Position numbers and translations under genes: made by a program
Part shown: in pieces, positions 56,895 through 61,983 of the stretch
Position numbering within the stretch: the first letter of the stretch is position 1
How the letters are laid out: each line of letters begins with the position of its first letter
The notes under the pieces: generated by a model
Databases searched by the model: none
What the model was told of the DNA's origin: nothing
The model's input: only the letters and a program-made list of their open reading frames with translations
DNA from: Halalkaliarchaeum sp. AArc-CO
Lineage (GTDB): Archaea > Halobacteriota > Halobacteria > Halobacteriales > Haloferacaceae
Assembly: GCF_024972735.1 (NCBI RefSeq)
Contig: NZ_CP087723.1
Coordinates: 1,984,001 to 2,048,000, forward strand
Length of the DNA stretch: 64,000 bases
Reading direction: 5' to 3'

Positions 56895-57365
56895 TCACCG
56901 CTCGATTGCACGCAGCGTTTCGGCGACGTCTTCGGGCGTCGCCGTGCTCGCCTCGACCCGGTGATCCGGGACGAAAAGCGGCGTCGGGTTTTCTTCGAGT
57001 GCGTCTTTCACCAGCTCGACGTCCTCCGGATCGTCGGAATCGAGTCCGGAGAGTTGGACGACCTGGCTCACGGTCGACGTCTCGCCGTACGGGATCTTCC
57101 GGGTCGCCTCGAGGATCCGGCGTCGATCGGTCGCCAGCGTCAGCGCCACCTGGACATCCGTAAAGTCGTCCGGTTCGCCCTCGAGATACGCGCCGATCCG
57201 ATCGAGAAGCGGATGGTCCGCGTCGGCGTCCGCCGCCGGCGACTCGGGAAACGAGACGCTGATGACGCGCCCGCTGGCGAGGCCGAGCTCGACCGTGCGG
57301 CCGATGCGTTCGAACTGCCGGGCGAACACACCGGTCGATCCGTTCAAACTCCCGTCAAATTCCAC
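56895..57365 (-). CDS. MGMT-family alkyltransferase-like protein lacking the catalytic cysteine
   Basis: 156-aa protein of the O6-alkylguanine-DNA alkyltransferase family. The DNA-binding helix-turn-helix region [18 protein letters not shown] matches the family block, and the active-site loop aligns as [15 protein letters not shown]. Where active enzymes have Pro-Cys-His-Arg this has Pro-Asp134-His-Arg, so methyl transfer is not possible. It thus resembles ATL proteins, which bind O6-alkylguanine and hand it to other repair. The start is GTG at 57365. It is divergent from mutS, with 102 bp between starts. Confidence 0.88.
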
Positions 57366-57430
57366 GTTCGATCACCTGTGGAATCCTCGGTTGTCCCCTG
57401 CCTTAAACGCTCGTCGTATCCGACGGCGTG

Positions 57431-57440
57431 GCGTTTATCT
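57431..57440 (+). promoter_or_regulatory. TATA-like box for the mutS-mutL operon
   Basis: GCGTTTATCT is about 32 bp before the ATG at 57468, giving a near-leaderless transcript. On the other strand a second TATA-like GCGTTTAAGG (about 57399-57408) serves the alkyltransferase-like gene. Confidence 0.45.
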
Positions 57441-57467
57441 CCCTGCCGCACACGTGATCGAACAACG

Positions 57468-60176
57468 ATGGCGAAAGCGGGGATCGACGAGGAGCGCGTG
57501 ACCGGGGTGCCGCCGTCGATGGCGCCCGTCGACGACGAGCTGACGCCGATGCTCACCCAGTACGTCGAACTGTGTACAGCCCACGAGGACGCGCTCGTGT
57601 TGTTCCAGGTCGGCGACTTCTACGAGGCGTTCTGCGAGGCGGCCGAGGCGGTCGCGCGGATCTGTGAGGTGACCCTGACCCAACGCGAGGATTCGACCGG
57701 CGAATACCCGATGGCCGGGATCCCGATCGACAACGCCGCCTCCTACCTCGAAGCGCTGCTGAATGCGGGCTACCGGGTCGCGATCGCCGACCAGGTGGAG
57801 GACGCCGAGGAGGCGACCGGGCTGGTCGACCGTGCGGTCACGCAGGTGATCACCCCCGGAACGATCGTCGACGACGAGCTGCTCGAAAGCGCCACGGCGA
57901 ACTACGTCGCCGCGGTTGCCGGAGAGACGACGGCCGACGGGGGCCCGGACGGTAGATCCGCCGACCTCGTCGGGCTCGCCGCCGTCGACGTCTCCACCGG
58001 CGAGTGTCTGGTCACCGACGGCGACCGCGAGACGATCGCCGAAGAACTCCAGCGGATCGCCCCCGCCGAGCTCCTCGGATCACCCGACGGACCCGAGTTC
58101 CCGCCCGACACGGTCGGCGCCGACTGGGAGGAAAACGAGTACGATCCGGCGGCGTTCGAACTCGACCGCGCGAGCGAGCGTCTCGGCGAGTACGTCGCCG
58201 CGCCGGAACGCCGTTTTTCGCGGGTCCAGCGCCGCGCCGCCGGTGCGGTGCTCGCGTACGCCGAGTACACTCAGGGGGACGACGGGCCGTTGGAGTACGT
58301 CTCCCGGATCCGGCGGTACGACACGCGGGACCACCTCCGGCTGGACTCGGCTGCACTCAGGTCGCTGGAACTGTTCGAAAACCGCAACAGCGGGGACGGG
58401 ACCACGCTGTTCGACAGCCTCGATCGAACCGTCTCGGCGCTCGGGCGGCGGCGGCTCGAACGCTGGCTCAGACGGCCCCTCCTGGACCGGGACCGGATCG
58501 AGGCCCGCCACGAGGCGGTCGCAGAGCTCGCCGATCGCCCGATCGTCCGCGAGGAGATACGTGACCACCTCGCAGCGGCGTACGACCTCGAGCGTCTCGT
58601 CGGCCGGATCTCCCGGGGACGGGCGGACGCACGCGACCTCCGGTCGCTGCACGCGACCCTCGAGATCGTTCCGGAACTCCGGGCGGCGCTCTCGGACGAC
58701 GGCGGGTCGGACGCGGAACGCGAAAGTGATCCCCTCGAAGCTCTCCGGGACCGGCTGGATCCGCTCTCGGACGTCCGGGAACTGATCGACGAGGCGATCG
58801 CCACCGATCCACCGACGGAAATTACGGAAGGTGGTATCGTCTGTGAAGGATTCGACGAACGGCTCGACGACCTGCGGGCGACCGAACGCGACGGCCGGGC
58901 CTGGGTCGCGGATCTCGAAGCCAGCGAACGGGAACGGACCGGCATCGACTCGCTGAAAGTCGGTCACAATCAGGTCCACGGCTACTACATCGAGGTGACA
59001 GATCCGAACCTGGACCGGGTGCCGGACGACTACCGCCGGCGACAGACGCTGAAGAACGCCGAGCGCTTTTATACCCCGGAGCTGAAGCGGCGCGAAGACG
59101 AGATCCTCGGGGCCGCCGAGCGCGCCGACACCCTCGAATACGAACTGTTCACCGGCGTTCGATCGCAGGTGGCCGCCGAGGCGGACCGGATCCAGGCGCT
59201 CGCGTCGGCGATCGCCGAACTCGACGCGCTCGCCTCGCTTTCGACCGTCGCAGTCGAGCGGGAATACGTCCGGCCGTCGGTTCGATCCGACGGGGAGATC
59301 GAGATCGAGGGTGGACGACACCCAGTCGTCGAGCGGACCCAATCGGAGTTCGTTCCGAACGACGCCACGCTTCCCCGGGGGAGCATCGCCGTCATCACCG
59401 GCCCCAACATGAGCGGGAAGTCGACGTACATGCGTCAGATCGCGCTGTGTGTAGTGCTCGCGCAGTCGGGGAGCTTCGTTCCCGCCCAGCGAGCACGGCT
59501 TCCGGTCGTCGACCGGGTTTTCACGAGGGTCGGCGCGAGCGACGACATCGCGGGCGGGGAGTCGACGTTCATGCGGGAGATGGCCGAGTTGACGGAGGTA
59601 CTTCACGACGCAACCCCCGACTCGCTCGTTCTGCTGGACGAGGTCGGACGCGGCACCGCGACCACCGACGGGCAGGCGATCGCCCGGGCCGCCGTCGAAT
59701 TCGTCCACGAGGAGCTGGAAGCGACCACGCTGTTTGCGACCCATTATCACGACCTGACGACGCTCGCCGACGAGTACGAGCGCGTGTTCAACCTCCACTT
59801 CACGGCGACCCGAGAGGACGGCGACGTGACGTTCCTCCACCGGGTGGCCCGCGGTCCGTCCTCGTCCTCCTACGGCGTCGAGGTCGCCGAGATGGCCGGC
59901 GTCCCCGAGCCGGTCGTCCGGCGTGCGCGGGAGTTCCTCGAGGCGGTGGACCGAACGGAGCGCTCGCCGGCCGGAGCCGACGAAGGGAGTTCGGACAGCA
60001 CCGTGGACGACGACGGTGACACCGACCCCCGCGACGGAACCGGCCAGGAAGGTGACGTCCCCGCAGGTCGACACGGGGTGCTCTCGGCGCTCCGGGAGGT
60101 CGACCTGGCCCGGACGACTCCGATGGAGGCGCTGCTCACGCTCCAGGAGCTCCAGGAACGGCTCGACGATGAGTGA
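57468..60176 (+). CDS. mutS: DNA mismatch repair protein MutS
   Basis: 902-aa MutS1 that recognises mismatched bases. The N-terminal mismatch-binding domain has the essential Phe-x-Glu as QVGDFYEAF near 47-55 (FYE). The core and clamp domains follow. The ATPase has Walker [14 protein letters not shown] near 645-657 and Walker [12 protein letters not shown], and [11 protein letters not shown]. An acidic disordered stretch near 840-870 precedes the C-terminal helix-turn-helix region. Its stop lies 8 bp inside mutL. The ATG at 57468 is the only one that fits, as the open frame upstream overlaps the divergent gene. Confidence 0.96.
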
Positions 60177-61983
60177 CGGAGATACCGGTGCCGACGGCGA
60201 GGCAGCCAGTGTCCGCGAGCTGGACACCGAGACGATCGAACGGATCGCCGCCGGCGAGGTGACCACCCGGCCGGCGCGGGTCGTCGCCGAACTCGTCGAA
60301 AATGCCCTCGACGCCGGAGCCTCCAGAGTCGAAGTCACGGTCGACGGCGACGGGACGGATCGGGAGAACCGGGAGTCAGCGGAACCCACCGGCCGTTCCG
60401 GACGGATCCGCGTCGCCGACGACGGCTGTGGAATGAGTCGACGGGACGCCGAACTCGCGGTCGAACCGCACACGACGAGCAAGATCGAGACGGCGGACGA
60501 TCTCCGGCGGATCGACACCCTCGGTTTCCGGGGCGAGGCGCTCGCGGCGATCGCGGAGGCGGCGACGCTCGACGTCCTCACTAACGACGGCGGCGACCGG
60601 GGGACTCGCGTACTCGTCGAACGCGGCGAAAAGACGGTCGCCGACGCCGGCCGGGGCCGGGGTACCACCGTCGAGGTAACCGACCTGTTCGCCGACCGAC
60701 CAGCCCGGCTGGCGTCGCTTTCGGATCCGGACACGGAGTTTTCACGGATCTCGACGCTCGTCGCGGACTACGCGCTCGCGCGCCCCGACGTGGCGTTCGT
60801 GCTGGTTCACGACGGTCGGGAGACGCTCTCGACGAACGGCGACGGTGTCCGTGGGGCGCTGTTGTCGGTGTACGGCAGGGAGGTGGCCCGCCGGGCGATC
60901 GGACTGGATCGGACCGTCGAGATCGGCGCCGGTGAGATCGACGCGAGCGAGGAGCCCCCGAACGGTCCCTTCACCCCGAACGACCCCCTCACCCCGGACG
61001 ATCCCTTCGAGTGTCGGATCCAGGGGGCGATCGTCTCGCCGGCCGAGACCAGGGCCACGGGGGAGGCCACCCGGGTCGCGATCGGGGGTCGCCCCGTGTC
61101 GAACGCCGGGCTCGCCCGGGCGGTCGAATCCGGGTTCGGGACGCTGCTTCCCGAGGGACGCCACCCGATCGTCGCGATCGACGTCCGGCTGCCACCCAGG
61201 CTCGTCGACGCGAACGTCCATCCGGCGAAACGGACGGTCGCCCTGTCCGTCTCCGAGACGGTGAAGACAGCAATCGAGGCCGTCGTCTCCGACGGACTCG
61301 AGACCGCAGACGTCGAGCGTGCCGCCGCCGCGCCGACGGACTTCGCGACCCCGCTCGAATCCGGAGACGTCGCGGACGCGACCGGGCCCGCCGCATCGAT
61401 CGCCAGCGCGGACGTCATCGGCCAGTATCGGGAGCTGTATCTGCTGTGTGAACTCGACGGCGACCTGCTCGTCGTCGACGGCCACGCGGCCCACGAACGG
61501 GTGAACTACGAGCGACTCAGGGCGGCTCTCTCCGGTGAACCGATCCCGAACCGGGAGCTGGAGCCGCCGGCGACCGTATCACTCGATCCGGGACACCTCC
61601 CAGTGTTCGAGGCCAACGAGGGGACGATCCGGGAACTCGGCTTCGACGCCGACCCGTTCGGCGGCGACCTGGTCCGGGTGCGGGCGGTGCCAGCCCCGCT
61701 GGGACGGGGGACGGACCCCGAACTGCTCCGTGACGTGCTGGATCGACTGGCCGACGGCGGCACACCGGATCGGCGACGAGACCGGCTGCTCCGGGACCTG
61801 GCGTGCCATCCGTCGCTATCGGCGGGAGAGACGCTGACCGACTCGGAAGCGAACGCGCTGCTGGACCGGCTCGCGGAGTGTGATGAACCGTACGCCTGTC
61901 CCCACGGACGGCCCACGCTGGTGCGAATCGAGGAGGCGACGCTCGCCCGGGAGTTCGGCCGCGAGCAGACCCGGTTCCGGTGA
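60169..61983 (+). CDS. mutL: DNA mismatch repair protein MutL
   Basis: 604-aa MutL with the N-terminal GHKL ATPase ([33 protein letters not shown]) and a C-terminal dimerisation/endonuclease domain. The nuclease motif reads [13 protein letters not shown], keeping Asp, His and both Glu of DQHA-x2-E-x4-E but with Gly for Gln. CPHGRPT is present near the end, so a nicking function is likely. The ATG at 60169 overlaps mutS by 8 bp, so MutS and MutL are co-translated. Confidence 0.95.

Follow-up and report, generated by a model that had tools for sequence, protein, structure and literature searches.

Halobacteria carry a protein of the O6-alkylguanine-DNA alkyltransferase (AGT) fold in which the catalytic Cys is nearly always replaced by Asp. 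It is the only AGT-fold protein of about two thirds of the genomes sampled, that of Halalkaliarchaeum sp. AArc-CO among them. Judged from its sequence, the Asp-type protein cannot carry out the suicidal alkyl transfer that AGTs perform through their Cys, because that residue has given way to Asp (rarely to Ser or Thr). We lean, with roughly even confidence, to a pseudo-enzyme that has given up AGT-style DNA reading and may have retained its pocket to bind a ligand or a partner protein, Asp occupying the position of the thiolate.

Results

An AGT-fold protein with Asp at the catalytic position

The window, that is, the whole analysed stretch of 64,000 nucleotides, contains an intact 156-codon ORF that runs from 57365 to 56895 on the minus strand and starts with GTG. 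Its features are as follows:

56895-57365, minus strand: Asp-type AGT-fold protein (putative pseudo-alkyltransferase), 156 aa, GTG start (ORF, PF01035, AlphaFold2 model)
57141-57365, minus strand: N-terminal domain (residues 1-75) of the two-domain AGT fold (model secondary structure; full-length AGT alignment)
56994-57029, minus strand: recognition helix (residues 113-124) with SsOGT-H5-like changes (DSSP on the model)
56964-56966, minus strand: codon of Asp134, at the position of the catalytic Cys (human C145) (sequence and alignment column)

The protein reads FVPDHRV where AGTs show [VI]PCHRV, and the change from PCHR to PDHR described in an earlier note on this DNA was confirmed, with Asp encoded at codon 134 (bases 56964-56966). 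In profile searches it matched PF01035 at 39.2 bits (cut-off 27), as the sole match above cut-off in its genome, and scored 29.4 bits against the NCBIfam ogt model TIGR00589, below the threshold of 46.4. An AlphaFold2 model based on the family alignment (pLDDT 95.4, pTM 0.87) aligned over residues 11-156 with two-domain AGTs, SsOGT (4zyd) giving a Z of 17.6 and an rmsd of 1.9. Human AGT aligned with the model at a Z of about 14, and ATLs through the C-terminal domain only (Z 8.3-9.3 over 72-73 residues). Among the features of AGTs, the 156-aa protein thus shows the PF01035 domain, the two-domain fold and the Asn hinge; the nucleophilic Cys in PCHR, the base-flipping Tyr with the Arg finger, the Tyr158/Lys165 loop and a score above the TIGR00589 cut-off are absent.

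The family occurs in all sampled Halobacteria and is under purifying selection

A homologue of the family was found in all 145 Halobacteria genomes, which represent 59 genera. PF01035 matches occurred in 390 of 391 genomes, the lone exception being 88% complete. Canonical haloarchaeal AGTs were patchy and confined to about one third of the genomes: as counted from the search table, 48 of the 145 had a strong canonical PF01035 match in addition and 97 had none. The family sample comprised 63 loci, nearly all from different genera, plus Salinigranum, Halogranum, Halogeometricum, Actinarchaeum and other named ones. In the resulting clade of 64, the alignment column of C145 held Asp in 60 sequences, Ser in three and Thr in one, compared with Cys in all 52 other AGTs (30 canonical haloarchaeal proteins and 22 others, the latter archaeal plus one bacterial). 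The distinct non-Cys haloarchaeal group that the earlier note had envisaged is therefore real, with the family in 145/145 genomes and Asp in 60/64 sequences. No viral copy of the family was found in viral_contigs, and the papers searched included no study of the haloarchaeal Asp-type family, an absence that is no proof of novelty.

The comparison with the congener gave a pairwise dN/dS of 0.22, and close pairs within two other genera gave 0.11-0.28; PDHR was present in all 18 sequences used. These sequence comparisons indicate that the Asp-type gene is under purifying selection. The earlier note had also allowed for a decaying gene whose close homologues would all have Cys. The missing catalytic Cys would fit such decay; the homologues, however, carry Asp, the gene is universal and intact, several of its columns are near-invariant, and its dN/dS lies at 0.11-0.28. 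Decay was ruled out on universal occurrence and dN/dS, and we regard it as virtually impossible.

The pocket core is retained and its surroundings are rebuilt

Four residues, Asn137, His146, Arg147 and Glu172 (human numbering), were invariant in 64/64 clade members. The base-flipping Tyr is gone, the Tyr114 column of the clade consisting mainly of Val (46), Leu (9) and Ile (3). At Arg128, the Arg finger, only 13 of 64 sequences have Arg, and the AArc-CO protein has Glu. At this position all 30 canonical haloarchaeal AGTs show Val (22) or Ile (8), and Arg is found in 21 of the 22 other AGTs. Tyr158 and Lys165 are likewise lost in the Asp clade. The stretch from His146 to Glu172 spans 19-20 residues in the clade versus 24-29 in other AGTs, and in most lineages outside family f1 it reads RDGPSAAPPxVEQKLRSLE.

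The recognition helix resembles that of a DNA-binding-deficient SsOGT

In a profile search of solved sequences, SsOGT-H5 (6ga0) ranked above wild-type SsOGT and was the best of the SsOGT entries. SsOGT-H5 has five mutations in its HTH, described as 'abolishing any DNA-binding activity' (Mattossovich et al. 2020, PMC7216122). The variant reads APAAVKTALSENP at the place where the wild type has SPRAVGMALSKNP. Relative to SsOGT, the AArc-CO protein has R102 changed to Glu, G105 to Lys, M106 to Asp and K110 to Glu, the K110 equivalent being residue 125, just beyond the recognition helix (113-124). The helix consensus of the Asp clade is xxxVRTALxENP. Three or four H5-like states at these four positions were present in 50 of 64 Asp-clade proteins and in all four basal relatives (see below), and zero or one in all 52 other AGTs (30 canonical haloarchaeal, 22 others), a descriptive contrast, as the state classes were picked after the sequences had been viewed. 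Mean net charge of the HTH was -5.5 in the clade, -1.3 in haloarchaeal AGTs and +2.9 in other AGTs. The earlier note had stated that both the fold and the DNA-binding helix are kept. The fold is (pLDDT 95.4, Z 17.6); the helix is present, but its DNA-contact residues are gone and the HTH is acidic.

Salt adaptation was considered as the cause of the acidic helix and is weakened by the 30 canonical haloarchaeal AGTs, which serve as a control. Loss of residues alone is no proof of lost DNA binding, because proteins of high-salt organisms are acidic and canonical haloarchaeal AGTs also do without the Arg finger.

The Asp clade descends from Cys-bearing AGTs

In a maximum-likelihood tree of 102 proteins, the 64 Asp-clade sequences formed one side of a branch with support of 100, and the canonical haloarchaeal AGTs stood on a separate branch. 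Four proteins of deep-branching Halobacteria (f5, f11) adjoined the Asp clade. Two of them (L121, L133) have PCHR and two (L132, L134) have PSHR, and all four retain the AGT tail G-[YF]...K-R-x-L-L-x-x-E. The tree required five changes of the catalytic-position state, three changes between Asp and not-Asp, and a single loss of Tyr114. PCHR was found in all 20 proteins examined from non-haloarchaeal genomes of the phylum. Because the deep-branching relatives still carry Cys or Ser, sequence comparison indicates that the Asp clade is descended from true Cys-bearing AGTs. Remodelling of the helix probably preceded the loss of Cys, since those basal proteins that still have Cys already show the remodelled helix.

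These four Cys or Ser forms with a remodelled helix come from genomes near 2 Mb. The basal Cys forms are candidates for natural alkyl-accepting proteins that might lack DNA binding. Elsewhere in the sample, the AGT gene of Methanohalophilus profundi (L041:3974-4237) has apparently lost its frame before PCHR, by decay or sequencing error.

The mutS-mutL neighbourhood is lineage-specific

The neighbouring features in the window are as follows:

57366-57467, no strand: divergent intergenic region between the gene and mutS, with inverted arms at 57366-57380 and 57449-57463 (sequence, congener G359)
57468-60176, plus strand: mutS, 902 aa, a neighbour in the AArc-CO genus, outside the conserved context (ORF, locus comparison)
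60169-61983, plus strand: mutL, a neighbour in the AArc-CO genus (ORF, locus comparison)

The Asp-type gene and mutS-mutL are divergently transcribed from either side of a 102-bp gap, and the congener G359 has the same arrangement. The context was surveyed in 69 loci, some of them ending at contig edges or with 4-kb flanks. trpC lay at most 5 kb away in 52 loci and was divergent within 1 kb in 49, typically at 55-312 bp; it was followed by trpB, trpA and usually an ADTH synthase-like gene. A CPBP-protease gene was found downstream (convergent) in 38 loci. Only two of the 69 loci, from two genera (that of AArc-CO and that of L088), had mutS-mutL adjoining the gene. In the latter, genus g18 (L088:5014-10501), the gene follows downstream of mutS-mutL in the same direction, in contrast to the divergent order of the AArc-CO genus. 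In the AArc-CO genome trpC is about 248 kb from the Asp-type gene. The mutS-mutL neighbourhood is lineage-specific and probably incidental. The link to mismatch repair that the earlier note drew from a promoter common to mutSL thus fell away, with adjacency in 2/69 loci against 52/69 for trpCBA; mutS is not always nearby, and the mutSL link was rejected as a general context.

The inverted arms, 15 nt long and 93% complementary, stand immediately upstream of both start codons, and both are present in G359; the gap (57366-57467) also has mirrored TATA-like TTTAA/TTTAT. The arm cores GGTGATC/GTGATC look like Shine-Dalgarno sites. Because these cores match the anti-Shine-Dalgarno complement (16S 3' end), two ribosome-binding sites explain much of the inverted arms. 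The CACA and GAAC flanks of the arms lie beyond the Shine-Dalgarno explanation. A genome-wide search for the inverted-arm element revealed no evident regulon, the two closest other matches being intragenic or near a start by a weaker match. An operator common to mutS and the Asp-type gene was rejected, as there was no regulon and ribosome-binding sites account for much of the element.

Discussion

The earlier note had taken the protein for a haloarchaeal ATL. According to Tessmer and Margison 2023 (PMC10779285), ATLs have no N-terminal domain and have lost the Asn hinge, conserve an HTH with Tyr and the Arg finger, and in most cases carry Trp in place of Cys. The Asp-type protein has no active-site Cys either; yet it has Asp rather than Trp, its residues 11-156 match two-domain AGTs, Tyr and the Arg finger are not kept, and the Asn hinge is present (64/64). 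Since the absence of Cys is the only ATL feature found, we do not file it as an ATL, and the assignment fails on four defining features (N-terminal domain, Arg finger with Tyr, Asn hinge and Trp). It might still act like one, recruiting UvrABC to O6-alkylguanine or other alkylated bases that it binds but does not repair, with no part for mutSL. The missing Cys, the HTH fold kept in the model, a strong UvrA match in the genome and the lack of another AGT in about two thirds of genomes (97/145 without a strong canonical PF01035 match, AArc-CO included) are consistent with this function. We nevertheless think it unlikely, given that Tyr114, the Arg128 finger, Tyr158 and Lys165 are lost, that the Asn hinge and N-terminal domain are kept, the opposite of ATLs (PMC10779285), that the recognition helix is H5-like and that the usual neighbours are trpCBA.

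Those neighbours raise the question of a transcription regulator that acts through the HTH, ancestrally on the divergent trpCBA operon, as the upstream trpC within 1 kb in 49/69 loci (typically 55-312 bp) would suggest. However, the gene persists where trpCBA lies elsewhere, namely in the AArc-CO genus (about 248 kb), several f3 genera and 4/4 basal genomes; the convergent CPBP-protease gene is conserved as well (38/69), which may mean that the pairing reflects nothing more than synteny; and the recognition helix is acidic and H5-like. A regulator is accordingly quite unlikely. We also find improbable an enzyme with new chemistry, in which Asp (or Ser/Thr) would serve as nucleophile or in acid-base catalysis with His and Glu. 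Its appeal is that the Cys position holds only Asp, Ser, Thr or Cys, never Ala or Trp, beside invariant His, Arg, Glu and Asn. But the model puts this residue at the N-terminus of a helix, a place that also favours Asp, Ser and Thr, and non-catalytic ATLs retain His and Arg too (PWHRV).

In the pseudo-enzyme reading that we prefer, a Cys-bearing O6-alkylguanine-DNA alkyltransferase has exchanged its Cys for Asp, rarely Ser or Thr. It has lost the Arg finger, the base-flipping Tyr and the active-site loop, and its recognition helix has become acidic and remodelled, so that DNA reading of the AGT or ATL type would have ceased; the pocket core (Asn137/His146/Arg147/Glu172) and the two-domain fold are retained. 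As assessed from the alignment rather than from coordinates, Asp would replace the thiolate beside His and Glu, and the new short loop (RDGPSAAPP in most lineages) would close the pocket, which could then serve a housekeeping sensing or adaptor role by binding a partner protein or a small ligand, perhaps one resembling a nucleobase. On a speculative note, Asp, being acceptor-only, would be expected near the purine 6-position to prefer an amino group to O6-alkylguanine. Besides the caution on residue loss given above, it counts against the pseudo-enzyme that Arg at position 131, conserved in 53/64, could be a new DNA contact, and that the conservation of His and Arg may be only structural. A particular course of events is tentatively suggested by the sequences, in which the AGT fold turned from DNA by dismantling its helix first, then changing Cys to Ser or Asp and rebuilding the pocket for non-DNA ligand binding or chemistry, as a natural counterpart of SsOGT-H5.

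Going by the PF01035 match, one would take this protein for a DNA methyltransferase in most haloarchaea. If it neither repairs nor binds alkylated DNA, about two thirds of the sampled genomes lack any recognised enzyme of this type for reversing O6-methylguanine, and a universal haloarchaeal protein would have a role other than DNA alkyl repair. The series from Cys through Ser to Asp, with living intermediates, offers a way to test, in the genetic model Haloferax volcanii, how a suicide enzyme was repurposed.

Compared with known systems, the Asp family has in common with AGT/MGMT/Ogt (SsOGT 4zyd, human 1t38) the two-domain fold, HTH, Asn hinge, P-x-H-R and the Glu172 equivalent. It differs from them by the lack of Cys, Tyr114, a conserved Arg finger, Lys165 and Tyr158, by an acidic recognition helix and by a loop 4-9 residues shorter. 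Canonical haloarchaeal AGTs (PCHR, L004-L033) occur in the same organisms and belong to the same fold family; unlike the Asp family, they retain the Cys, Tyr, loop and Lys, form a separate branch and are patchy. With ATLs (S. pombe Atl1 3gva/3gx4, Vibrio 2kif, E. coli ATL) the family shares a Cys-less AGT C-terminal fold, whereas it keeps the N-terminal domain and Asn hinge, has Asp instead of Trp and has lost the ATL-type Tyr and Arg finger. SsOGT-H5 shows the same kind of changes as the Asp family (loss of R102, G105K, M106T, K110E), but is an engineered self-labelling tag with Cys and alkyl-transfer activity (PMC7216122).
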